From NCBI RefSeq assembly GCF_037076425.1, contig NZ_AP028127.1:402001-466000 (forward strand): DNA of 64,000 nucleotides, written 5' to 3'. The position numbers were made by a program, and so were the translations under genes. This document shows, in pieces, positions 5,385 to 33,369 of this stretch (position 1 is the first letter of the stretch; every line of letters begins with the position of its first letter). The stretch is from Turicibacter faecis. Lineage in GTDB: Bacteria; Bacillota_I; Bacilli_A; MOL361; Turicibacteraceae. The notes under the pieces are model-generated. The model was not told the origin of the DNA. It was given only the letters and a program-made list of their open reading frames with translations, and did not search any database.

Positions 5385-5978
5385 TTAGCCCTCCTTTACC
5401 ACTTGCTGTTTTGATTTCACAATTTCCATAAATAAAGTAACAAAACCGATGCCTAGGCATAGGAAGATAACTGTCATAGCACTAATGCCAAAAACATATG
5501 TCATGATGAAAGTAATAAACATGAGCGATGTATAAAGAACACTTTTTGTTTTAATGATATTTTGTGCAAGTTTAATGACAACATCACAAATAACAGCGGC
5601 AACCCCAGCACGCATAACCATAAGGGCAGTCGCAATCACTGTACTTTCTCTAAATTGCTTATAAAATAAAGAGATGACCGAAATAATAAAAATAGGAGGA
5701 ATTGATGTCCCTAAAATCGCGACTAATGATCCGATAATCCCTTGCATACGATAACCTAGAATAACTGATGCATTGATTGGGATAGGTCCTGGAGAAGATT
5801 GCGCAATAGCCGTAATATCAAGCATTTCACTTTCCTCTAACCATCCTAGTTCTTCTACAAATTTCTTTTTCATCAGAGAAACAATAACGAATCCACCCCC
5901 AAAAGTCGAAGCACTTAAAATAAAAGTGGACCTAAATAACTCCCATAAAATCTTTGAATCTAATGTTTTCTTTTCCAT
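5385..5978 (-). CDS. Chromate transporter family protein, first half-size subunit
   Basis: About 197 residues, CHR domain with the paired glycine motif TFGGGFVIVSLMKKKF and the AQSSPGPIPINASVILGYR signature. I use the ATG at 5978 (MEKKTLDSK), seven bases after AAGGAGCG, rather than the longer reading that runs through the ribosome site. It forms an operon with the CHR gene behind it. A TATAAT-like -10 on this strand lies at ~6053-6058. An ISL3 element begins only ~25 bp further upstream, so the insertion may have replaced or altered the native -35 region. Confidence 0.85.
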   Translation of the reverse strand: MEKKTLDSKILWELFRSTFILSASTFGGGFVIVSLMKKKFVEELGWLEESEMLDITAIAQSSPGPIPINASVILGYRMQGIIGSLVAILGTSIPPIFIISVISLFYKQFRESTVIATALMVMRAGVAAVICDVVIKLAQNIIKTKSVLYTSLMFITFIMTYVFGISAMTVIFLCLGIGFVTLFMEIVKSKQQVVKEG

Positions 5979-6082
5979 AACAACGCTCCTTTTTAAAAAA
6001 ACACTCACAGTGCAACAAATTACCTTAACATGAATATTTTACATGCTTTTTCATTATATAGTATGAATGCTAACATAAATGT

Positions 6083-7820
6083 GATTCTTCCGCTATTTTG
6101 GTGAAAAGCCCTTTCTAGGAATAGAGCACTTTAATACGTAGAAGTTCAAAACTTGCTCGTCCATACATTTGGCGTTTAATCATTTTAATTCGGTTGACAT
6201 TCCCTTCACAAATCGCATTAGTGTATGGATAAACTAATGCGTTACTGATCGATTGCTCATCACGTTTCATTCGAAGACAAAACTCACGCAGTAATTTAAT
6301 CTCATGAGTAGCGTAACGTTCTAGCCATTGAGATAATTTGAATACTTGCCCCATCGTGACCAAATCTCTAAATACTTGGATGGCTGTATATAGTTCACTT
6401 AAGTCTGCATGAGCTTGAAAGAGTTCATTTAATAAATTTAATTCTGGTTGAGTTAAAGACGTTGGTTTTCGCCAAATGAATGAGGTGAGTTGAAACTTCG
6501 TTGCTTTCAATAATTTACTAGATTTTTTTGATATTTTTTCTGTTGCCTTCTCACTTGTTTTTACGGGGAGATTTGCTTTAATTTCTTGAACTTTTCGACG
6601 AGTTGAAGAAGCTCCTCCTTTAAACCCTTGGTGGATGAGTTGTTCATGAATCCAACGAGCAGTTTTTCCCTCCTGACACCATTGTGTGATTTGATTTAAA
6701 TAGGGGACAAATTGATTAACACGGGGCTTTCGTATTTGCTTGGGAGGTTCAGATAACTGAATATACTTCGCTACGGTTGTCCGACTTAACTTAAGTTGTC
6801 TGGCTGTTTGACGAATAGAGCCTACTTGTTGGTAGACCTTTTGAATCTCCAAAATGAGTGCCCATTTTGCTTGTTCCTTTTCAGATAATGATTCATGACT
6901 GGATATTGAGTTCACGTTAGTAATCGTTATATCTGTCGCTGGATCTGTTTTTTTAGTGATTGAAGATTCAGGCATGATAAACCATCCTTTAGGAAAACGA
7001 GAACTAATGGTTTCTTTAACAACCGTTAATAGGTTTTTAAGAAAGTGCCACTTGTCGGCAACCTGAATAATGTTAGGATTCGTTAAATGAATGGCTTTAG
7101 TATAAGTTGTTGCACGATCACGTGTCACTAATTCAACTGAGGGATGTTTTTCCAACCATTCTTTAAACGCTTGAGTCGAACGAGAGGCCAGAATTTCAAC
7201 CGGACGATGCGTTTCTAAATCACAAATAACCGTTCCAAAGTCGACCCCTCGACGAAAAGAAAAGTCATCAACCCCAATGTGGGTTAATGACTGATTTTTT
7301 ATATCTTTTTCAGTAGAATCGATACGTCGTAATAAATCTAATAGTGCATCTCCACTTCGTTTATATCCAAGTTTAAAAAGAAAGCGTGATAAAGCTTCCG
7401 CACTCATCGATAATGATAATTGAAGAAAAACCTCTTCAAGACGAATGGTTAAACGCCGATAGGCATTTAAAAAGCCAGTAAATCTTTCAGTAAAAATTTG
7501 ACGTTTACAGTTAGGATTTAAACAAAAAAACTTTTTAGCTTGTATCCTTAATTGAACAGGTTTATTAAGGATAGACGCATCTAATGGTTTTCTAAGATAC
7601 GTACTGTGTACCTGGTGACTTTTCATCCCACATAAGGGACAGTGGTTAAATTTTGATTCAGATTTTAAACAAATCAAGATTATATGCTCATTATTTTCAA
7701 TGGATTGAATCATAAGATTTTCAGGGAAAAAGACATTAAGATTCATGATGATATACCTCTCTACGATGTCTTTTCATTATATCAGGTAAAGCGTTTTATC
7801 ACCAAAAGTCAGGAAGAACC
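6083..7820 (-). mobile_element. ISL3 family insertion sequence, apparently intact
   Basis: About 1.74 kb with imperfect terminal inverted repeats: GATTCTTCCGCTATTTTGGTGA at the left end and, read inward from the right, GGTTCTTCCTGACTTTTGGT. One full-length transposase gene lies between them. The eight bases outside each end do not match, so no target duplication remains; either the element is old or a rearrangement followed. It lies just upstream of the chromate transporter promoter. Confidence 0.85.
6115..7746 (-). CDS. ISL3 family transposase
   Basis: 543 residues, unbroken. An N-terminal zinc-binding region (CPLCGMKSHQVHS and CLNPNCKRQIF, ~37-85) is followed by the DDE transposase core. 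Core motifs are GVDDFSFRRG, VTRDRATTYTKAI, ADKWHFLKNL and, near the C-terminus, the glutamate in NAICEGNVNRIKMIKRQMYG. A helix-turn-helix (RQTARQLKLSRTTVAKYI) is inserted in the middle, which explains the length above the ~430 residues of short ISL3 enzymes. A good AGAGAGG ribosome site precedes ATG 7746. Confidence 0.93.
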   Translation of the reverse strand: MNLNVFFPENLMIQSIENNEHIILICLKSESKFNHCPLCGMKSHQVHSTYLRKPLDASILNKPVQLRIQAKKFFCLNPNCKRQIFTERFTGFLNAYRRLTIRLEEVFLQLSLSMSAEALSRFLFKLGYKRSGDALLDLLRRIDSTEKDIKNQSLTHIGVDDFSFRRGVDFGTVICDLETHRPVEILASRSTQAFKEWLEKHPSVELVTRDRATTYTKAIHLTNPNIIQVADKWHFLKNLLTVVKETISSRFPKGWFIMPESSITKKTDPATDITITNVNSISSHESLSEKEQAKWALILEIQKVYQQVGSIRQTARQLKLSRTTVAKYIQLSEPPKQIRKPRVNQFVPYLNQITQWCQEGKTARWIHEQLIHQGFKGGASSTRRKVQEIKANLPVKTSEKATEKISKKSSKLLKATKFQLTSFIWRKPTSLTQPELNLLNELFQAHADLSELYTAIQVFRDLVTMGQVFKLSQWLERYATHEIKLLREFCLRMKRDEQSISNALVYPYTNAICEGNVNRIKMIKRQMYGRASFELLRIKVLYS

Positions 7821-7920
7821 ACTTTTTTATTGACATTTATAATATAGGAAATAAGTATATTTTATCAAACACATAGGTAAATACCTATACATCGTAAAGA
7901 GTCTTAATATAATAAGGATA

Positions 7921-7949
7921 AAAAAAAGTCATCGAAAGATGACTTTTTT
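7921..7949. terminator. Bidirectional terminator at the 3' end of the broken XRE gene
   Basis: AAAAAAGTCATC-GAAA-GATGACTTTTTT, a perfect stem with a four-base loop. It lies 23 bp beyond the stop codon of the interrupted XRE gene on the minus strand. Confidence 0.8.
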
Positions 7950-8026
7950 AATGAGTGTAGGGGGAAAGACCCTAGTTTTGATTTTCGATACTAATAATAT
8001 CTCGAATATCTTCAATATCTAGGGCA

Positions 8027-8034
8027 TCTGCAAT
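8027..8034. repeat. Target site duplication of IS66, left copy
   Basis: TCTGCAAT, identical to bases 10378-10385 at the other end of the element. Confidence 0.93.
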
Positions 8035-8110
8035 GTAAGCGGGTAATTATAATACGGATAGAAAAAAAGCAAGGTTCGTTGTACACTAAAGGCACACTGA
8101 ATCTTGCTTT

Positions 8111-9694
8111 TTATTTACAATTTTCTTGAATTATTTTTGACCAGGGTAAAAAGTCCCCCAATAGCTGTGGATTTACTAAGAATTCGCAATTTGGAAGTTT
8201 TTCAAAAAGGTAGGTTAAATAACGATAGACATTTAATCCGTTGGCTTTGGCTGTTTCAATTAAGGTATATGCCATGGCGTTTGCTTGGGCCCCTTTGACA
8301 CTCGTTGAAAAGAGGTAATTCTTACGTCCAACGACAACGGGTCTAATAGCTTGTTCGGCTAAATTATTAGAGATCTCTAAACGTCCATTTGACAAGAATT
8401 CTGTGAGTGCTCGTCTTTGGTTCTGGGCATAAACAATCGCTGTTTGTAACTTACCTTTAACCGTACGAATCCCTTCAATAAATTGATAAAAGGATTCAAT
8501 GATTGGCCGAATTTTTGATTCTCTTTGGATTTGACGTTCCTCAGGGGAAAGGTGTATCAACTCTCGTTCTAACCGAAAGATTTGATTACAGAAGTGAACG
8601 GCTTGTTTGGCTTTCCCATGTTCCGTTGAAACCTCTTGAAATTTCCGGCGTGCATGTGCCCAACACCCCACGGTGGTCACATTTGGCAAATCTTTGTAAG
8701 CTATATAGCCATCACAATGAAGCCATCCTTTAAACGACCGAAGTAGTTCTAAAATAACAGACTTCGCGCGTGTTAAATCGGCGTGATAAAAAACAATGGG
8801 ATGGGACACATCTTTGATGGTACGAATCAACCAAATTCGAGCCTCTGATGTAGCAGGTTTTCCATCCGAACGATTTAAAATCTGATAATATGTTTCATCC
8901 GCATGTAGGACCTCTTGTTGGCGTAATTTATCTAGAAATAGTTTATATAAAGGTTCTAGCCAATCAAAAGAGGCACGGATAATCCAATTAGAGAGAGTTT
9001 TCCGACTTACTTCTAATCCATAAGACGACCATTCTTTCTCTTGGCGATAAGTTGGTAATCCGAGTTCAAATTTTTGATGAAAAAGCCAAGCCAATGTTGT
9101 TGGTCCTGCTAAGCTACGTTGGATAGGTCCCTTAGGAACCTCGGCACAACGAATGGATTTAGCTTCAAGATTAGGATCATGACAATCACATTCGTAGGCA
9201 TGTGAAATATAAACTTTCTTATATAATCGTGCAGGTACAAAACAGACTTCTTCACGAACAACCTTTTTCCCCATTGGTTTCATGGCATGACCGCAATGGT
9301 CACATGTACAATCCTCTCCATGAAGTTCACAATGAACTTCTTCAATAGGTAAATCTTTCGTTAATTCTGCTTTACGACCAGATGTCTTACGACGGCGATA
9401 CGTAATTTCCTCTGTCGGTTCATCCTTTGTCAGAGGTTCTTCTAATACAGGATCCCCAAAAAGGGTAAGCTGACCTGGATCAACCTTAGTTTTCTCGCTT
9501 GAGGATCCAAAAAGCTTTTTTGAAAGAAACTCAACCTGTTCAATAAGCGTATCAATTTTGTCGGTCTGCTCCATCATTTTTAATTGGAGCTTATTAATTT
9601 TTTCCTCTTTTTGGGCGAGTAGTTGAGCTTGTTGATCCAGTTTCTTTAATAGTTTCTGATTTTCTTCGATTAGTTTTGATTCAAACGTGTTCAA
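8111..9694 (-). CDS. tnpC: IS66 family transposase TnpC
   Basis: 527 residues, full length. An N-terminal coiled coil (~1-60, rich in K, Q and E) precedes a zinc-finger region (CELHGEDCTCDHCGHAM) and the IS66 DDE core (LHADETYYQIL, the HCDGYIAYKDLP block, and EISNNLAEQAIRPVVVGRKN near the end). It starts with TTG at 9694, seven bases after AGAGGTGAG; no ATG in that area fits. Function in transposition is established for the family. Confidence 0.93.
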   Translation of the reverse strand: MNTFESKLIEENQKLLKKLDQQAQLLAQKEEKINKLQLKMMEQTDKIDTLIEQVEFLSKKLFGSSSEKTKVDPGQLTLFGDPVLEEPLTKDEPTEEITYRRRKTSGRKAELTKDLPIEEVHCELHGEDCTCDHCGHAMKPMGKKVVREEVCFVPARLYKKVYISHAYECDCHDPNLEAKSIRCAEVPKGPIQRSLAGPTTLAWLFHQKFELGLPTYRQEKEWSSYGLEVSRKTLSNWIIRASFDWLEPLYKLFLDKLRQQEVLHADETYYQILNRSDGKPATSEARIWLIRTIKDVSHPIVFYHADLTRAKSVILELLRSFKGWLHCDGYIAYKDLPNVTTVGCWAHARRKFQEVSTEHGKAKQAVHFCNQIFRLERELIHLSPEERQIQRESKIRPIIESFYQFIEGIRTVKGKLQTAIVYAQNQRRALTEFLSNGRLEISNNLAEQAIRPVVVGRKNYLFSTSVKGAQANAMAYTLIETAKANGLNVYRYLTYLFEKLPNCEFLVNPQLLGDFLPWSKIIQENCK

Positions 9695-16863: not shown

Positions 16864-16932
16864 GGTAGGAGATGAAGAATTACTTCCGATGTAGATGATA
16901 AGAGAATTTTTTTAGTAGTGGGTGATAATGAT

Positions 16933-17910
16933 ATGTATGATAAAAATACACGAATTTTATATATGCTAGAACGGTTATTAGAAAAGAGTGAATTCTCAAA
17001 GGAAGAAATTCAAGAAATGTTTAGGATTGATAGTCGGACGTTTGAACGAGATATTGCAACATTACGTACTTATTTTAGTCATCGAATGGGGTCGATGGGG
17101 GACCAATACATTGAATATGACTATCAAAAAAAGAAGTATTACTTAAAAAATCCCGTTAATCAACCGCTAGATGCCAAGCAAGTGTTAGTTTTGATTAAAC
17201 TCTTACTTGGTACACGTTCGTTAGCTGTTGAAGAACTTGACCAGATGATTGACTCCCTTTGTACGTTGTTAGACATGAATGATAAAAAAAGGATCCAAAA
17301 TTTTATTAGTAATGAACGGCTTCATTTTACGCCGCTTAAACATGAACAACAATTAATGGATCGCATATGGGACTTTAGTCAATTAATTGATAGTTCTCAT
17401 AAAATGATCATGGAATATAAAAAGGCGAATCATACGATATCGACTTATACAGTTGCCCCAGTTGGACTCCTGTTCTGTGATTTTTATTTCTATGTGGTGT
17501 GTTATGTGACCGACAGAGAAATCCCATATCCGATTTCCTTCCGTGTCGATCGAATTTTATCGTATCAAGTGTTGAAAGAAACATTTAAAATTCCGTATGC
17601 TCACCGATTTGAATCCGGTGATTTTCGTAACAAAATTAACATGATGTATCAGGGGGAGTTGATTAAGTTTACGTTTAAATTTACGGGTCATTCCGTTGAA
17701 GCAGTGCTTGATAAATTTCCTATCTCACGAGTGATTGAAGAGGGCGACGGATACTGTATTATTGAGGCAATGGCTTATGAACAAGGACTACTCATGTGGA
17801 TCTTTAGTCAAGGGGATTGGATCCACCTATTATCTCCACAAGATTTAATTGAAAAAGCAAAGGCACGTTTAAACCGCATGCAGCGTTACTATGAACCATT
17901 AGAAGCTTAA
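16933..17910 (+). CDS. WYL-domain transcriptional regulator
   Basis: About 325 residues. An N-terminal winged helix of the DeoR/HTH_11 type (~1-60, DSRTFERDIATLRTYF) is followed by a WYL domain (~135-300), including the pattern PVGLLFCDFYFYVVCYV and SFRVDRI. WYL proteins sense small ligands or nucleic acids; several (for example BrxR and CapW) repress phage-defence operons through palindromic operators. ATG 16933 is used; an in-frame GTG at 16918 is possible. The promoter palindrome upstream suggests autoregulation and a link to the operon at 44.7 kb. Monocistronic with a strong terminator. Confidence 0.85.
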   Translation: MYDKNTRILYMLERLLEKSEFSKEEIQEMFRIDSRTFERDIATLRTYFSHRMGSMGDQYIEYDYQKKKYYLKNPVNQPLDAKQVLVLIKLLLGTRSLAVEELDQMIDSLCTLLDMNDKKRIQNFISNERLHFTPLKHEQQLMDRIWDFSQLIDSSHKMIMEYKKANHTISTYTVAPVGLLFCDFYFYVVCYVTDREIPYPISFRVDRILSYQVLKETFKIPYAHRFESGDFRNKINMMYQGELIKFTFKFTGHSVEAVLDKFPISRVIEEGDGYCIIEAMAYEQGLLMWIFSQGDWIHLLSPQDLIEKAKARLNRMQRYYEPLEA

Positions 17911-19521: not shown

Positions 19522-19726
19522 TACCGAAAACACGATTTGCCTAGATAAAAGGGGAGTTTTAAAAAATTTAATTAAAAATAATTGATGTCGAATGCACAAG
19601 AGTCTGATACACTAGAAAGAAGAAAATATTCTGATTTAGATTCGATGAGTGGCTTTCGTGAATGTGGGTACCTTGGAAGTCAGGAGAAAATGGTACAACC
19701 GGCTAAATTAGTAGTTGGAGGATAAG

Positions 19727-20800
19727 ATGATTAATAAAGTTTTGGGCAGTAATTTTACGACGAAGAAAATCTTAGCAACAGAAACATTAGGTGAATCATC
19801 TCATCTGAGGAAAAGTATTTTGGATTATTTCGGGTTACGATTTATACTTTTAGGTGGATTAGTGATGCCGCATCAGTCTGTTTTGGCAACACCTACAACG
19901 AATCAGTTGGAGTTTAGTGAGTATCAACGACAGATGGAGGCTTCAGTGATTGGACTAGTCTTCATTTTAATGGCGGTGGCAACCTTTTTTTCTCATCGTC
20001 TCTTAGCGGTTTGGGAAAAGCGAAAACAAAAGTATCGATTTATCCATAAGTTAGCTCATGATGAATTTATTCTTTATTACCAACCGATCGTTAATCCAGA
20101 TCAACATAAAGTGATGGCATGTGAGGCGTTATTAAGGATGAAAGACAACGATAACATTTTATCACCGTTTCATTTTCTAGAGACGGTTGAGGAACTTGGA
20201 TTAATGGAACGCATCACGCTGTGGGTTTTACAACGGGTGATTCAAGATTATCCAGAAATTAAAGCGCATAATCAACATCTTGATGACGAATTTTATATTT
20301 CTTTAAATGTTTCCTTTAAAGAGCTAGCTAGCCCTTCATTTATTGAACAGGTAAAGGAGATTTTAGCTCATGTGGATTTAACTGAAATTAAACTTTGTTT
20401 TGAGATTATCGAAAAGTATCACCTTGAGAATCAAAGCTTGACGAATCAGGTGATTCGTGAATTAAGATCGCTTGGGGTTAAAGTGGCGATCGATGACTTC
20501 GGTGTCGAGTATGCGAATTTAGATATGCTCGATAAAATTGATTATGACATTATTAAGCTAGATAAACATTTTATCGATGAAATCCAAACCTCTTTTATTC
20601 GCCAGGCATCCGTCTTATTTATAGGAAAAGTGATTGAATATTATCAAAAAAGAATGGTGATGGAAGGGTTAGAGTATCCTAAACAACTCGAAGTTTTGCA
20701 AGAATTATATCCAGGTGTTGTCTATATTCAAGGTTATTTGTATTCACCGCCGATTAGCTTAGAAGAATTCAAAGTATTTACGCTTAAATCGGTAGAGTGA
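19727..20800 (+). CDS. EAL-domain cyclic-di-GMP phosphodiesterase, membrane-anchored
   Basis: 357 residues. A hydrophobic stretch near 35-55 and a transmembrane helix near 78-95 (SVIGLVFILMAVATFF) precede a cytosolic EAL domain from ~110. Residues expected for hydrolysis of c-di-GMP are visible: EALLR, the Asn in SLNVSF, EIIEK, the DDFG pair, KLDKHF, EGLE and QGY. The enzyme is therefore probably active, giving pGpG. ATG 19727 follows GGAGGATAAG and is preferred over the TTG at 19715. No GGDEF domain is attached, and no c-di-GMP riboswitch is seen in this window. Confidence 0.85.
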   Translation: MINKVLGSNFTTKKILATETLGESSHLRKSILDYFGLRFILLGGLVMPHQSVLATPTTNQLEFSEYQRQMEASVIGLVFILMAVATFFSHRLLAVWEKRKQKYRFIHKLAHDEFILYYQPIVNPDQHKVMACEALLRMKDNDNILSPFHFLETVEELGLMERITLWVLQRVIQDYPEIKAHNQHLDDEFYISLNVSFKELASPSFIEQVKEILAHVDLTEIKLCFEIIEKYHLENQSLTNQVIRELRSLGVKVAIDDFGVEYANLDMLDKIDYDIIKLDKHFIDEIQTSFIRQASVLFIGKVIEYYQKRMVMEGLEYPKQLEVLQELYPGVVYIQGYLYSPPISLEEFKVFTLKSVE

Positions 20801-24423: not shown

Positions 24424-25953
24424 TTGTTGAAAAGGTTATCTGTTATTAAAAATAGTATAAAAATGATTTTTATTTTCTTAATCGGTTTAGTTCTTTCGTT
24501 TCTGTTTGATTATCTTGGATTTAATGAGGCGAATATTATTCTTGTTTTTACCTTATCTGTTTTATTGACAGCGCAATTTACCGATTTTTTTATCTATAGT
24601 TTTATTTCTTCCCTGATCGTCGTGCCCTGTTTTAATTTCTTTTTTATTGAACCACGGTATTCGTTTAATGTTTATGATGCGGATTACCTCATTACTTTTT
24701 TCATTATGTTGATGGTGACCCTTATGGCCAGTATACTTACCAATCGTATTAAACGGATTGCAGCGGTGGCAAAGGTAAGAGAAAATCGAATGAAATTTTT
24801 ATATGAAAGTAATAAACACTTATTACTCGTTCAGGGTCAGGAACCAATTGTAAATGAAAGCGTGAAAAATTTAGCTCGTATTTTAAAAAGAGATGTGGCG
24901 ATTTCTCGCTGTGATGAAAATCATCAATTATTACCGCTTCAAAATTATAGTTATTCATTGAAAGAAGAGGCTTCCTTGTTTTTAAAGAGTCTCTCTACCG
25001 AAGAAATGGCAAAGGTAATTTCCTCCGATCATGATGGGTTAGATCCAAACTTACAAATTTACTACTATCCGATTCTGGGAAAAAATGATACACTCGGTGT
25101 GATTGCGATTTCACTTATAAATAAGGATAAACTTGATGAAAATGAAATGACATTACTTCAATCCTTGTCAACTCAAATCGCTTTTGCTCTTGAAAGAGAA
25201 CGATTATACGAGCAACATAAACAGGCTAATTTAGAGGCCGAACGCGAGCGCCTAAGAGGAAACTTACTTCGTTCAATTTCACACGATTTAAAAACACCGC
25301 TGACGAGTATTTTAGGGTCTACTTCAACTCTTATTCAAAACAATCACATCATTACCGAGGAAATTCGCTTAGAGTTGTTAAATAATATTTATGATGAGAC
25401 CACTTGGCTTCAACGGTCGATTGAAAATATTTTAAGTATGACAAAGATTGACGAGGGAAGATTAGAATTAGATAAACATCCGGAATTATTAGAGGAATTG
25501 ATTACCGAGGCAGTGACACGAATTCAACGCTTCCATCCGCAGGTTAAGATTGTGGTCGATATTGAAGAAGAGATGGTTTTCCTAAATGTTGATGCCGTAT
25601 TAATTGAAACGGTTCTTGTCAATTTACTCGATAATGCCGTCCATTTTTCAAAGGAGAATCCGGTTATTACTGTTAGAGCCTATCCAGTTGGGAAGGATGT
25701 CTGTTTTCAAGTAATTGATGAAGGAAGAGGAATTTCAGAAGAAGATCTTCCGTTTATTTTTGATCGATTTTATACAAAAGGGCAAGGGGGAGTATCGCAT
25801 AAAAAAGGAATTGGCTTAGGGCTTACGATTTGTAAATCAATTGTGCAAGCCCATCATGGGACAATAACGGTCTTTAATAATGTGCTTAATGGATGTACGT
25901 TTGAATTTTTGATTCCAATGGATTATGAGAATGGGGCACTATCGAGCGTATAA
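24424..25953 (+). CDS. KdpD-like sensor histidine kinase lacking the KdpD N-terminal domain
   Basis: 509 residues. Four membrane helices in the DUF4118 arrangement (~14-100), a GAF-like region (~125-260), then HisKA and HATPase domains: H-box SISHDLKTPLTS (~287), N-box LLDNAVHFSKEN, DEGRGIS, FDRFY and GIGLGLTICKSI. Typical KdpD has an additional ~370-residue cytosolic KdpD/USP region, absent here. Such truncated forms still sense potassium limitation in some bacteria. It starts with TTG (24424 or 24427) after AAGGA. The cognate regulator is the next gene, 290 bp on, and potassium transport genes follow. Confidence 0.87.
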   Translation: MLKRLSVIKNSIKMIFIFLIGLVLSFLFDYLGFNEANIILVFTLSVLLTAQFTDFFIYSFISSLIVVPCFNFFFIEPRYSFNVYDADYLITFFIMLMVTLMASILTNRIKRIAAVAKVRENRMKFLYESNKHLLLVQGQEPIVNESVKNLARILKRDVAISRCDENHQLLPLQNYSYSLKEEASLFLKSLSTEEMAKVISSDHDGLDPNLQIYYYPILGKNDTLGVIAISLINKDKLDENEMTLLQSLSTQIAFALERERLYEQHKQANLEAERERLRGNLLRSISHDLKTPLTSILGSTSTLIQNNHIITEEIRLELLNNIYDETTWLQRSIENILSMTKIDEGRLELDKHPELLEELITEAVTRIQRFHPQVKIVVDIEEEMVFLNVDAVLIETVLVNLLDNAVHFSKENPVITVRAYPVGKDVCFQVIDEGRGISEEDLPFIFDRFYTKGQGGVSHKKGIGLGLTICKSIVQAHHGTITVFNNVLNGCTFEFLIPMDYENGALSSV

Positions 25954-25963
25954 GGATAAAATC

Positions 25964-26028
25964 TTTACACTTTCTTTATGCTAGTAATAAATTATTTAAT
26001 ACAATCTTTATATCAGATTTGATAAACT
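25964..26028 (+). promoter_or_regulatory. KdpE-like operator and promoter 1, before the response regulator
   Basis: Direct repeat TTTACA-N5-TTTATG (25964-25980), then TTAATACAATCTTTATA (25996-26012), then ten bases to TAAACT (26023-26028) as -10. The same elements with the same 32-bp offset and 10-bp final spacing occur at 27022-27086. TTTAYA direct repeats with five-base spacing resemble E. coli KdpE sites (known from that system). Binding by the encoded regulator is inference. Confidence 0.65.
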
Positions 26029-26245
26029 AAAGGTAAAAACATAAAGAAGTTTGTCATTTAAGTCGGAGCTAACGATTTGAATGTCGATTGTATGAATAAG
26101 CCCTTAGGGGTTAGTTTTGTAAAGTGGACGTTAGGACGAGGCGTTAGAATAAAATAAAGGGATTGGTGTCGAATATGTCCCCTTCATATGAATTTAAGGG
26201 GAGAAGACGAGCTCTAATCAATGATTAAGAATGGAAGTGATGATG

Positions 26246-26962
26246 ATGGAGATTAAGCCGTTGATTTTAATCGTAGAAGATGATAAATCAATTGCTAAGT
26301 TTGTGAAGGTGTCGATGGAGGCACAGGGATATAAATGTATTGAAACAACAACGGGTCAAGGTGCATTGGCCTTAGTCTTTTCAAGTAATCCTGATGTCAT
26401 CATTTTAGATTTAGGACTACCGGATATGGATGGGCTTGAAATTATTGAAAAGATTCGTCCGCTCACTCATGCGAAGATTATTGTCGTTTCGGCACATGGA
26501 CATGAACGAATTAAAGTTGAAGCGTTGGATACAGGGGCAGATGATTATTTAACAAAACCGTTTAATGTTTCAGAATTATTAGCCCGTGTTCGTGTTGCTT
26601 TACGCCAATTAAAACAAGTTCACGTATTAGGTCAGATGGCCCAAATGCAGGAGGAAGCCACTTCTTTTAAAGTGGGCGATTTGTTAATCGACTTTGATAA
26701 ACGCAAAGTGGTGATTCGTGAGGAAGAGGTCCATTTAACCCCTATTGAATTTAAACTGATTGAATTAATGGCGAAGCATGCTGGCCGCGTATTAACTCAT
26801 CGATTTATGATTCATGAGATATGGGGTGGTTATGGAGAGAATGAAACACAGTCTTTACGCGTATTTATGGCAAATATCAGAAGAAAAATTGAACTAGAGC
26901 CGACGCATCCGCGTTATATCATTACGGAAGTTGGGGTTGGTTATCGTTTAGTGGATGAATAA
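26246..26962 (+). CDS. KdpE-like OmpR family response regulator
   Basis: About 238 residues. Receiver domain with acidic pocket VEDD near the start, phosphoacceptor Asp in VIILDLGLPD (~55) and Lys in LTKPF. A C-terminal winged helix (LTPIEFKLIELMAKHAGRVLTHRFM, TEVGVGYRLVD) binds DNA. Of several in-frame ATGs (26231, 26240, 26243, 26246) the last has the best spacing to GGAAGTGAT. No kdpFABC pump is present; its targets are more likely the Trk genes downstream, which share its promoter architecture. Confidence 0.88.
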   Translation: MEIKPLILIVEDDKSIAKFVKVSMEAQGYKCIETTTGQGALALVFSSNPDVIILDLGLPDMDGLEIIEKIRPLTHAKIIVVSAHGHERIKVEALDTGADDYLTKPFNVSELLARVRVALRQLKQVHVLGQMAQMQEEATSFKVGDLLIDFDKRKVVIREEEVHLTPIEFKLIELMAKHAGRVLTHRFMIHEIWGGYGENETQSLRVFMANIRRKIELEPTHPRYIITEVGVGYRLVDE

Positions 26963-27000
26963 AAAAGGAGTTATCACTTTGAGTTGATAGCTCCTTTTTT
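26961..27000 (+). terminator. Terminator of the response regulator gene
   Basis: AAAAAAGGAG(T)TATCA-N7-TGATA(G)CTCCTTTTTT. It separates the regulator from the transport operon, which has its own promoter. Confidence 0.88.
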
Positions 27001-27021
27001 CGTTAAGGAAATGTTCAAATC

Positions 27022-27086
27022 TTTATAAGACTCTTATACGGGATATGGTTATCTTAATACAATCTTTATACTAATTTTGTTACACT
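27022..27086 (+). promoter_or_regulatory. KdpE-like operator and promoter 2, before the TPR-trk operon
   Basis: TTTATA-N5-CTTATA (27022-27038), TTAATACAATCTTTATA (27054-27070), then ten bases to TACACT (27081-27086). A duplicate of the block at 25964-26028. Confidence 0.65.
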
Positions 27087-27120
27087 TGTAGATGCCATTA
27101 GTTAAGAAGAGGTGAGCAAA

Positions 27121-27447
27121 ATGGGACAAATAAAGGGAGATGCCCTGTTTGAGGAATGTGTTATTTGTTCGGTTAATTATTTAAAGAGTTATCAATACAA
27201 AGAAGCGTTGGCGATGATTCATGAGGCCATGCAGGCAGATGATACATCGGCACTCGTTTATAACCTACTTGGTATCTACTATGAAATGAAGGGGGATTAT
27301 GTTCGAGCAAGAAAGCTTTATTTGGTGGCTAGTGCATTAGATGCTTCGTTTTTACCAGCGATGAATAATTTAAATCGCCTAACGTCTTATATGGCGGAGA
27401 GAACGCAAGTATCCATCGATTTTGGAAATTATGAGCGACATAAATAA
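27121..27447 (+). CDS. Small tetratricopeptide-repeat protein
   Basis: 108 residues with about two TPR units (LKSYQYKEALAMIHEAMQADD and YNLLGIYYEMKGDYVRARKLYLVASALD). No signal or membrane segment. ATG 27121 follows AGAGGTGAG. It is the first gene of the potassium uptake operon; TPR proteins are adaptors, so it may tether or regulate the Trk complex, but I know of no direct precedent. The gap to the next gene is 37 bp. Confidence 0.72.
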   Translation: MGQIKGDALFEECVICSVNYLKSYQYKEALAMIHEAMQADDTSALVYNLLGIYYEMKGDYVRARKLYLVASALDASFLPAMNNLNRLTSYMAERTQVSIDFGNYERHK

Positions 27448-27484: not shown

Positions 27485-27919
27485 ATGAGATTAAAGAAAA
27501 AGAATTATATTGTTATTGTGGGGTGTAGCCAGTTCGGTGCAACGATTGCCTCTACCTTTTCACAACAAGGCTGTGATGTTGTGGTGATTGATCAAAATGA
27601 CATGGCGTTTCGAAAACTAGAGTATGGATTTAGTGGCTATAAAGTGATAAAAGATGGGACAGATGTTGAAGTTTTAATTCAGGCTGGCATTGAACAAGCT
27701 TCCCTAGTCGTAGCGGCGACAGATGATGATAATGCTAATCTGATGATTTCCCAAATGGCTAAAGAGATTTTTAATGTCGAGGAGGTTGTTTCTCGATTAT
27801 ATGATGTCGATAAACAAATTTTATATCGCGATTTAAATATCAAAATGATTCGTCCAACCCGATTGACGATGGATGAGTTTGATAAACTAGTGATGAAACG
27901 CGAGGGAGGAAAATTCTAA
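27485..27919 (+). CDS. TrkA/KtrA-type RCK-N protein, half length
   Basis: 144 residues, a single Rossmann RCK_N domain: nucleotide loop VGCSQFGATIASTFSQQG (~13-30), acidic VVIDQN at the end of beta 2, and AATDDDNANL. The RCK_C domain of full KtrA/TrkA is absent. RCK proteins gate TrkH/KtrB channels in response to nucleotides or c-di-AMP. It overlaps the next gene's start by one base, and a second, full-length RCK protein follows, so the two may form a hetero-octameric gating ring. Confidence 0.85.
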   Translation: MRLKKKNYIVIVGCSQFGATIASTFSQQGCDVVVIDQNDMAFRKLEYGFSGYKVIKDGTDVEVLIQAGIEQASLVVAATDDDNANLMISQMAKEIFNVEEVVSRLYDVDKQILYRDLNIKMIRPTRLTMDEFDKLVMKREGGKF

Positions 27920-28593
27920 TGAAGGTTTTAATTGTTGGAGGACGTGGGAAAGCCGATTTTTTAATGAACTCATTACTTGATAAAAAAAATAGCGTGACGT
28001 TAATACACGATGATGAGGAATATTGTAGACAATTAGCCCGTAAATATGACACGACGATCATTTGCGGGGACGGAACAAAACGTTATATATTAGAAGAAGC
28101 TGAGATTGAAAATCAAGATATCGTAATTGCATTAACACCGAAAGATTGTGCGAATTTCGTCATTTGTCAATTAGCGAAGAAAGTTTATGGGATAAAGAGA
28201 GCTTTTGCGACTGTCAATAATCCTAAAAATGTTGACGTGTTTAAAAAATTAGGGATTGATTCGGCGATTAGTGCGACTTACGTAGTGTCAAATATGATTG
28301 AACAACTTGCGACGATTAATGATTTATCTCATTTAACGGTGATGGAATCGGGCCATATTCATTTAATGGAGTTGCTTGTGAAGGAGCAAGATCCGATCGT
28401 AAATCAACAGATTAAAGACATTGATATTTCTGAAGAAATGATTATTAGTTGCATCATTCGAAGTAATCAGGCCCTAATTCCAAAAGGAGATACATTTATT
28501 TTATCGGGTGATAAACTTATCATTTTATCAACCAGCACGCAACCTCAATCATTTATCGGACAGTTAGTAGGTGATTCCTATGAAACGCGTTAA
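27919..28593 (+). CDS. TrkA family potassium uptake regulator, full length
   Basis: 224 residues with both RCK_N (VGGRGKADFLMNSLL, GDGTKRYILEEAEIENQDIVIALTPKD) and RCK_C (~145-220, including EQDPIVNQQIKDIDISEEMIISCIIR). Overlap of one base with the gene before and 14 bases with the gene after (ATG 28580) shows translational coupling to the channel subunit. Confidence 0.87.
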   Translation: MKVLIVGGRGKADFLMNSLLDKKNSVTLIHDDEEYCRQLARKYDTTIICGDGTKRYILEEAEIENQDIVIALTPKDCANFVICQLAKKVYGIKRAFATVNNPKNVDVFKKLGIDSAISATYVVSNMIEQLATINDLSHLTVMESGHIHLMELLVKEQDPIVNQQIKDIDISEEMIISCIIRSNQALIPKGDTFILSGDKLIILSTSTQPQSFIGQLVGDSYETR

Positions 28594-30040
28594 ACAAAAA
28601 TATTTAATCATGGCCTATTTATCACGCTTTATGATGATTATTGGCCTCATTTTATTCATTCCTTTATTGGTGCTCCCTTTTTATCCGCAAGAGGTGATTT
28701 ATTGCAAGGATTTCATTATTCCTGCCCTTATCGCTATCTTATTAGGAGGGGGATTAACGAAGGTACTTCCTTTTGAGCGGTCACAACGACTCTCGGTGGG
28801 GGATGATGCGGTGATTGTGGTAGGGGCTTGGATCCTTGCGATTGTATTTTCGGCCATGCCATTTGTTTTCTCTCATCAATTAAATGTAACACAAGCCATT
28901 TTTGAATCGGTAAGTGGTTGGACGACGACGGGATTATCGGTTGTTAATACGGAACAAACGGCGCACATTTTTTTAATTCATCGAAGTGTTACTCAATTTT
29001 TTGGAGGGGTAGGAATCGTTCTAGTGTTATTGTCGGCCCTTTCAAGTACATTTGGATTGCAACTTTATCAATCAGAGGGGCATAATGACTATTTGCTTCC
29101 TAACTTGATTAAATCTTCACGCCTTATTTTAGGAATTTATTTTGGCTATATTATGATTGGCGTGCTACTCTACACCTTATTTGGGATGCCGTTATTTGAC
29201 GCGATTAACCATTCAATTGGTGCCCTTTCTACAGGTGGTTTCTCCGTTAAAACATTAAGCATTGAGGCTTATGATTCTGTGGCAATCGAGGTGATTACCA
29301 TTGTTCTGATGTTATTAGGAACAACGAATTTTGCTGCCCATCTTCTGCTGCTTAGGGGAAGATTAAAATCGTTTTTTAAACTAGGTGAAATTAAGTTTAT
29401 GGCTCTTTTGATTGGAATTGGGGTGGCACTTTTGACCGTTTCATTAGCCGGAACGGTATTGGGGTCATTAGGTGACTCGTTCCGAGTGGCTATTTTCCAA
29501 GTTATTTCGGCGTTGTCTACAACGGGATATGCGACAACAAGTTATACAACGTTCACTTCATCCGCACTGTTTATCATGATTGTTTTGATGATTATCGGGG
29601 GAGGGGCCGGTTCAACATCAGGTGGGATTAAGCTCTATCGTTTCCTTCTATTAGTCAAACAGAGTATTTGGAACGTGTATCTTCAATTTAAACCTGAACA
29701 TTTGATTAAGGAACCATTTGTATTAAAGCCCGAGGGAAAAGTTTATTTAACGAATGATGACTTTAAAGAGGCTTCAAATTATGCTTTTATTTATATGGTC
29801 TTGCTGGGGATTGGGACGTTTATATTTTTAGTGATGGGTTATCCTCTTCAGGAGTCGCTATTTGAGTTTGCGTCGTCATTAGGAACGGTCGGTCTTTCGA
29901 TTGGAATAACTGCTCCTGATCTTCATCCACTTTTATTGTGGACGGAAATAGTGGGGATGCTGTTTGGGCGCTTAGAAATTTGGGTTATCTTTATTTCACT
30001 GATTAAAATTTGTACGAGACGTAAAAGAGGTCGCAACTAA
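28580..30040 (+). CDS. TrkH/KtrB family potassium transporter
   Basis: About 486 residues, an integral membrane protein. Four pore-loop repeats with the selectivity glycine can be seen: FESVSGWTTTGLS, HSIGALSTGGFSV, ISALSTTGYATTS and FASSLGTVGLSIG. The long hydrophobic helices between them match the TrkH fold. ATG 28580 after AGGTGAT is preferred to the GTG at 28571. Together with the two RCK proteins it forms a Trk-type potassium (or sodium-coupled) uptake system. Confidence 0.9.
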   Translation: MKRVKQKYLIMAYLSRFMMIIGLILFIPLLVLPFYPQEVIYCKDFIIPALIAILLGGGLTKVLPFERSQRLSVGDDAVIVVGAWILAIVFSAMPFVFSHQLNVTQAIFESVSGWTTTGLSVVNTEQTAHIFLIHRSVTQFFGGVGIVLVLLSALSSTFGLQLYQSEGHNDYLLPNLIKSSRLILGIYFGYIMIGVLLYTLFGMPLFDAINHSIGALSTGGFSVKTLSIEAYDSVAIEVITIVLMLLGTTNFAAHLLLLRGRLKSFFKLGEIKFMALLIGIGVALLTVSLAGTVLGSLGDSFRVAIFQVISALSTTGYATTSYTTFTSSALFIMIVLMIIGGGAGSTSGGIKLYRFLLLVKQSIWNVYLQFKPEHLIKEPFVLKPEGKVYLTNDDFKEASNYAFIYMVLLGIGTFIFLVMGYPLQESLFEFASSLGTVGLSIGITAPDLHPLLLWTEIVGMLFGRLEIWVIFISLIKICTRRKRGRN

Positions 30041-31829: not shown

Positions 31830-33369
31830 GGTTCTATAATTTTTGGTGTGGGTGGGATTACTCACACCTTTTTGATTGCCATAAATATTGAGACAAAAAA
31901 AAGAGACATAGTCCCCAAAATCCTATACAATGTAATCGGCTAAAACAACACGAAAGGATTGGTTTTATGTCTCATACTAATTGTATCTCAACTTTACTTG
32001 ATTTAAAAGATAAAAATATTACTTTTTCAGAAAATTGTATCCAGGAAACTCAGATTAAGAATGTTCGTTCTAAACTTATTTTAGGGACTCTTTCTTTTCA
32101 ACCGACTCATTGCTACCACTGTGGTCATTCTTTTGACTCAAATATCATTAAACACGGCTTCAAAACTTCACGTATTAAGCTAGTCAAAATTTCCGGATTT
32201 GATGCTTATCTAGACTTAAAAAACAACGTTATAAATGCCGTCATTGTGACCGAACATTTACCCTAGAAACATCTCTTGTTAACCCTAATTGTTTTATTTC
32301 CACTCCCGTAAAACAAGCCATCTTTTTAGAAGCTAGTCATAAGAAATCCGAAACAGATATTGCACGTGAGCTTAACGTTTCTCATTCAACCGTTAACCGC
32401 GTCATTCATTCTTCCTATGAAGAACAGCCGCTTCCCTTTAATTCTCTCCCAAAAGTTCTTTGTTTTGACGAGTTTAAGTCGGTTAAATCGGCCGAGGGTC
32501 ACCTGCCATGCGAAGCATGTATCCTCCATTGGTAGGGAACGGAGCAATGTCCTTCATTTTTTGTGATGCGTCCAATGGAAAGCTAATTGATATCGTTGAA
32601 GACCGTCGCTTAAGTACACTAAGGACTTATTTTATGCGATTTTCTAAAGCAGCTCGTGAAGGTGTAACCCACGTCGTCATTGACATGTACGCCCCTTATA
32701 TGACACTCATTAAAGAGGTATTCCCTAAGGCTAAGATTGTTTTAGATAAATTTCATATCGTTCAACTAGTCTCTCGTGCTCTTAATAAAACACGCATTCG
32801 TTTCATGAATCAAAATAAAGAGTTTTATAATAAATTCAAACATTATTGGCGACTTCTCTTAAAAGCCCAAGAAGATCTTAATGCCACTCATTACTTCTAT
32901 TCCAACTGCTTCAAAAAGATGATCTCTCAACAAGAAATTATTGACTTTTTATTAGCCCTAGACCCTGAACTAAAGGAGACTTATGATTTCTACCAAACTG
33001 TCCAACAGGCTATTAAACTTCGTAACCTTGAAATATTTCATCATGCCATTCAACACCCCTCTGACCTGCTTTCACACGAAATGAAAACAGCTTTAAAAAC
33101 ACTCACTCATTATCAAGATTATGTCAAAAATACTATCGAAACTCCTTATACAAATGGAGTACTTGAAGGAATTAACAACAATATCAAAGTCATTAAGCGA
33201 ATCGCTTTTGGATACCGTAGTTTCTACCATTTCAAAGCAAGAATTTTGATTATTCATAAATACACTTTTGAACAAAAAAAGAAGAGGAATCAAACCATCT
33301 AAAGAATAGCCTAATTCCTCCCGATTATATGTATAGATTTTATTCACCCACACTATTTGATAAAGAACC
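31830..33369 (+). mobile_element. ISL3 family insertion sequence with target duplication
   Basis: 1,540 bp. Ends read GGTTCTATAATTTTTGGTG at the left and, inward from the right, GGTTCTTTATCAAATAGTG; the match resumes in GTGTGGGTG. The perfect 8-bp duplication TCTTAAGT flanks it (31822-31829 and 33370-33377). The transposase frame is interrupted twice. This is a different ISL3 lineage from the element at 6083. Confidence 0.93.
31967..33302 (+). pseudogene. ISL3 transposase with a -1 shift and a 44-bp insert
   Basis: The parts together give a full-length ISL3 transposase of ~430 residues: zinc finger (CYHCGHSF and CRHCDRTF), HTH (TDIARELNVSHSTVNRVI), DDE parts (CFDEFKSVKS, VTHVVIDMYAPY, VLDKFHIVQLV) and the C-terminal NGVLEGINNNIKVIKRIAFGYRSF. 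Break 1 is at ~32213-32221, where the frame moves -1 at A AAA AAC. Break 2 is a 44-bp insert (32497-32540) with a stop codon (TGG TAG). Either the copy is dead or one or both sites are recoded; a dead copy is the simpler reading. Confidence 0.85.

Follow-up and report, generated by a model that had tools for sequence, protein, structure and literature searches.

In the analyzed window (i.e., the whole 64,000-nucleotide stretch of the Turicibacter faecis genome), two blocks, A (25964-26028) and B (27022-27086), both located on the forward strand, like all genes and promoter elements of this locus described below, are predicted to be KdpE-dependent promoters of a response regulator gene and of an operon encoding a Trk-type potassium uptake system, respectively. 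The probability of this reading was estimated at about 0.86. The duplicated composite block and its identical geometry had been proposed in a sequence-only reading of this DNA, and both the coordinates and the spacings were confirmed.

Block A begins 10 bp past the stop codon of a sensor kinase gene, and block B sits between the regulator gene and a gene encoding a small TPR protein. In each block, a distal repeat (TTTACA-CTTTC-TTTATG, 25964-25980, in promoter A; TTTATA-AGACT-CTTATA, 27022-27038, in promoter B) is followed, at a start-to-start distance of 32 bp, by the 17-mer TTAATACAATCTTTATA (25996-26012, at the usual place of a -35 element, and 27054-27070, respectively) and then, exactly 10 bp further, by a putative -10 hexamer (TAAACT, 26023-26028, and TACACT, 27081-27086), recognized by its sequence and by the conserved geometry. 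The KdpE site was previously described as a direct repeat of TTTA(T/C)A with a 5-bp spacer (PMC3264566). In a scan with the consensus TTTAYA-N5-TTTAYA, which is derived from E. coli and thus independent of the T. faecis genome, each of the four repeats of blocks A and B scored 11/12, and these four were among the 7 sites scoring at least 11/12 on both strands of the 64-kb window. The 17-mer is not a separate element: it reads TTAATA-CAATC-TTTATA and thus represents another direct repeat of the KdpE type, with a period of 11 bp, and therefore each promoter consists of a distal repeat, a proximal repeat and a -10. A third half-site (TTTGAT/TTTGTT), 11 bp past the proximal repeat, is not claimed, as it overlaps the -10.

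The genome scan for the composite motif, which the earlier reading had suggested as a check, located it with at most 1 mismatch exclusively in blocks A and B of the 2.43-Mb genome, while the next four places had 3 mismatches (the reversed control has 2). The exact 17-mer TTAATACAATCTTTATA also occurs in 2 copies only, i.e., in the two blocks, and composite scores (including the -10) of at least 27 were reached by 2 matches in the window vs 0 in 150 dinucleotide shuffles. The pattern TTTAYA-N5-YTTATR alone was not above chance (21 matches in the genome vs 16 in the reversed control; a count comparable to shuffles in the window), and the distal repeat by itself was dropped as evidence for this reason. 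An identical 17-bp proximal box in two blocks lying about 1 kb apart in one genome could also mean that promoter B is a recent local copy of promoter A (or the reverse), functionless and kept by chance. This is hardly credible, since the sequence around and between the repeats differs between the blocks, whereas the geometry has been kept, and since independent loci show the same geometry (see below).

The promoter scan found no -35 partner for either TAAACT or TACACT, and both hexamers are weaker than the -10 elements of most relatives. Since the proximal repeat lies over the -35 region, it may be argued that the blocks repress transcription, with the bound regulator stopping the polymerase when potassium is sufficient. 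We consider this very unlikely, because there is no recognizable -35 that would serve factor-independent transcription, the fixed 10-bp spacing to the -10 fits the requirement of a class II activator, and KdpE is a positive regulator of kdpFABC in both E. coli and M. smegmatis (PMC3264566, PMC5401905).

The gene following block A (26231-26962) encodes a response regulator of the OmpR/PhoB family, composed of a receiver and a winged-helix domain, which among OmpR-family regulators is closest to KdpE. Its top PDB matches are the E. coli KdpE structures (E about 1e-55), its top NCBIfam model is KdpE (213 bits, which is under the equivalog cut-off of 325), and a tree of 31 regulators placed it inside the KdpE clade, apart from the OmpR-family paralogues, with 100/100 support. 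Moreover, it keeps all three DNA-contact residues of KdpE, R193, R200, and T215, reported as essential for DNA binding, of which R193 is said to be KdpE-specific (PMC3264566); R193 and T215 are missing from the aligned paralogues of the T. faecis genome and its genus. Judged by its sequence, the regulator is KdpE, and it is predicted to bind the repeats of both blocks. The gene is preceded by an mRNA leader of about 200 nt (26029-26230), which folds better than shuffled sequences (z -2.85), matched no Rfam family and contains no ORF of more than 26 aa ahead of the regulator start. Riboswitch control was rejected, as no Rfam family was found at the operon or at related loci besides an unrelated T-box and tRNAs. 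Downstream, an intrinsic terminator with a 16-bp stem and T6 (26961-27000; folding z -5.8) closes the regulator unit right before block B, so that the trk operon must be transcribed from a promoter of its own.

Domain searches corroborated the suggested composition of this operon, i.e., a Trk system with two RCK subunits and a TPR protein. It encodes the small TPR protein (27112-27447, with the ATG at 27121 as a possible alternative start), RCK1 with the TrkA_N domain only (27485-27919), RCK2 with TrkA_N and TrkA_C (27919-28593), and a TrkH-family K+ channel subunit (28571-30040; also matched by NCBIfam); thus both the TrkH-family membrane subunit and the RCK/TrkA subunits of a Trk/Ktr uptake system are present. 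No composite is present near the other TrkH/KtrB gene of the genome (G000:C1, about 150.6-151.8 kb), which was therefore rejected as a further K+ operon with shared control. Counterparts of the TPR protein were found in loci L139 and L145, and, as a fusion of a receiver and TPR, in L099 of another genome, where the trk operon (5606-9236) opens with a kinase, a single receiver protein and this fusion; the TPR likeness suggests a role of the TPR protein in signalling or in transporter control. In the kdp locus L145, a 123-residue TPR protein is encoded immediately 3' of kdpE (16915-17286), which is a further sign that the TPR family belongs to KdpDE systems. The same-genus genomes lack the regulator, and one of them alone, G003, keeps a broken trkH remnant (L108, 7798-8472; 56-60% identical to the TrkH-family protein of the window), the rest of the operon being missing.

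Apart from this locus, the window contains a c-di-GMP-II riboswitch (19629-19713) just 5' of the ORF 19715-20800, which looks like an EAL-type protein. Several related ORFs come next, including one that matches bactofilin. A transposase-like gene in two reading frames, apparently broken, was found at 31967-33302.

The sensor histidine kinase encoded upstream of block A (24424-25953) corresponds to the C-terminal half of KdpD. The Pfam search indicated the DUF4118 four-helix membrane domain, a GAF-like domain (scoring just below the curated cut-off), HisKA, and HATPase, and the NCBIfam KdpD model aligned to the protein only from position 408 of 895. Neither Pfam nor NCBIfam revealed the KdpD domain (PF02702) or the USP domain, and therefore the kinase is KdpD-like rather than a full KdpD. 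The possibility that the KdpD domain is encoded elsewhere in the genome was discarded, as the sole PF02702 match above the cut-off was RadA. KdpA was also absent from the T. faecis genome (it was detected in all 5 positive control genomes), and by this measure the genome has no Kdp system proper, i.e., kdpFABC under KdpDE.

KdpE orthologues were identified in 23 of the 392 sampled genomes (T. faecis included), in the neighbourhood of kdpFABC, ktrB-like genes, or RCK1-RCK2-TrkH (L137, L141, L150, and L153). The alignment of the upstream regions revealed a common layout, composed of a distal repeat (consensus across relatives TTtATA-caATc-TTaATa), 31-33 bp, a proximal repeat, 10 bp, and TANNNT, which was found in about 20 further loci, upstream of kdpFABC, kdpD, ktrB, or trk genes. 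With spacing and -10 rules partly learned from the very loci scanned, composites scoring at least 27 were found 19 times in the operon direction, once on the opposite strand, and never in two reversed-sequence controls, and the spacing grid had a sharp peak at a gap of 10 and a distance of 31-32. These composites precede kdpFABC, kdpD, ktrB, TPR or RCK genes, or an ORF ahead of ktrB, and the distance from the -10 to the next reading frame is 4-34 nt, the exceptions being kdpA genes (240-255 nt) and the regulator of the window (202 nt). As the scanned regions had helped to define the rule, the parameters were fixed and then tested on the KdpA loci of 14 further genomes, i.e., on kdp and not trk promoters, where 5/14 loci scored at least 26 and 7/14 at least 25 in the operon direction, compared with 0 in three controls. 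No clear composite was present near the operon in the KdpE-linked loci L148, L153, L155, and L157, and the score of L137 and L150 was 25, below that of other loci.

The degenerate 17-bp motif TTWAYACAATCTTWATA, representing the strong half, was found in 8 of the 23 KdpE-positive genomes vs 12 of the 369 others (Fisher 3e-6), and it was located at K+ genes in all 7 motif-bearing KdpE-positive genomes besides T. faecis vs 0 of the 12 in the other group. An 11-bp period of direct repeats is a general feature of OmpR/PhoB regulators, and the T. faecis genome encodes other OmpR-family regulators as well as three further KdpE-like matches; the paired operators might thus be real and yet serve another regulator of this family, or the operon might not respond to potassium. 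This seems unlikely to us, as the motif specifically fits the KdpE half-site, its distribution among genomes follows that of KdpE orthologues and it lies next to K+ genes, while the three paralogues share 33-35% identity with the regulator of the window and the aligned one (L051) lacks R193 and T215. The earlier proposal of one KdpE-type activator acting on both promoters has therefore gained support from the KdpE protein, the KdpE half-sites and the recurrence of the composite at K+ genes, and it is refined by the two predicted KdpE sites per promoter and by the wide spread of this design.

The predicted KdpE-Trk link is well supported by these comparisons, and it is not restricted to the T. 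faecis genome. Loci L139, L137, L141, and L150 share with the window a truncated KdpD, KdpE, and a composite before TPR or RCK genes. L139, originating from another family, has the same gene order (HK-RR-[composite]-TPR-RCK), but its contig ends early, and the order in L137, L141, and L150 is RCK1-RCK2-TrkH-HK-RR, unlike in the window. Furthermore, in L141 and L150 a conserved protein of 63-70 residues (MEELIGQ...), encoded on the reverse strand, is the first after the composite and before RCK1, where the TPR protein would be; judged by eye, its fold is perhaps Sm or SH3-like. In the ktrB-linked KdpDE loci of Bacilli (L147, L149, and L151), KdpE is orthologous and the composite lies 6-28 nt upstream of the ktrB frame, but the transporter is of the KtrB type.

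The kinases of these systems differ in length. The whole N-terminal part is missing from the kinases of six Trk-linked loci (the window being one of them), whereas the KtrB-linked kinases of L146, L147, L149, and L151 keep about 160-190 N-terminal residues (which in L147, L149, and L151 match the USP part), those of L143 and L144 do not, and the kdp-linked ones are mostly full length. Proteins with the KdpD N-terminal domain and without a full kinase are encoded divergently from kdpA in L145 (5997-7907) and L156 (412-1380), where KdpD is apparently split and the kinase half is a separate gene. The USP domain of S. aureus KdpD binds c-di-AMP (PMC4686210), and the Trk-linked kinases should therefore be devoid of this input.

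Taken together, upon potassium limitation, a signal adopted here from known KdpDE systems, the shortened KdpD-type kinase would phosphorylate the KdpE-type regulator. One KdpE dimer would then occupy the proximal repeat, in place of a -35 and exactly 10 bp from the -10, and a second one the distal repeat, 32 bp (about three helical turns) upstream. In PhoB class II promoters, the activator site substitutes for the -35 and sigma region 4 is contacted; by analogy, the proximal dimer may recruit RNA polymerase via sigma region 4. PhoB is also alike in binding as an OmpR/PhoB-family dimer to 11-bp direct repeats, the Pho box (PMC4415409), but its half-site is TGTCAY, compared with TTTAYA of KdpE (PMC3264566). 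Promoter A would provide positive autoregulation of the regulator gene, and promoter B, insulated by the terminator, would drive the TPR-RCK1-RCK2-TrkH operon. As the genome is devoid of kdpFABC, the KdpE dependence of both blocks would mean that KdpDE controls a Trk-type uptake system.

No description of KdpE control of a Trk operon was found in the literature searched, and, according to the discussion in PMC5401905, identification of the KdpE site of the kdpF promoter had been limited to four species. Upstream of kdpF of E. coli MG1655, TTTATACTTTTTTTACA (TTTATA-N5-TTTACA) resembles the distal repeat of blocks A and B and is the published KdpE site, footprinted at -72 to -50 (PMC3264566). 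At +32 from it, TTTGCGAAATCTTTGCA (TTTGCG-AAATC-TTTGCA) is placed as the T. faecis proximal repeat and is followed, after 10 bp, by TACCCT. This second sequence is near-perfect as a repeat, yet it scores 9/12, and further scores of 9 arise there by chance. Apparently, the two-site layout is thus also present at E. coli kdpFABC, with a weak second repeat, for which no description was found in the literature searched, the coverage of which was partial. E. coli differs in its target, which is a P-type ATPase, and in its kinase, in which the KdpD and USP domains are complete.

The sequence-only reading had further suggested that the KdpDE-type pair was rewired from kdpFABC to Trk. The Trk link itself is supported, and KdpA is absent, but the direction of the change is not established, because the KdpE tree needs several changes of transporter link: the transporter association is patchy on this tree, and the Trk-linked KdpEs are split over more than one clade.

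KdpDE is commonly presented as controlling a single pump, KdpFABC. From the presented data, it is predicted to switch Ktr or Trk uptake instead in many Bacillota, via a fixed two-site promoter, the consensus of which would allow K+ regulons to be read from sequence; in E. coli, the -35 of kdpFABC is predicted to be covered by a second KdpE site. The loss of the c-di-AMP-binding USP domain correlates with the change of transporter. We would give about even odds to the broader generalization, namely that tandem KdpE promoters are general from Bacillota to E. coli (with the E. coli proximal site overlooked), and that KdpE has been repeatedly attached to the available K+ transporter, the KdpD and USP input domains being lost step by step where Ktr or Trk is the target.
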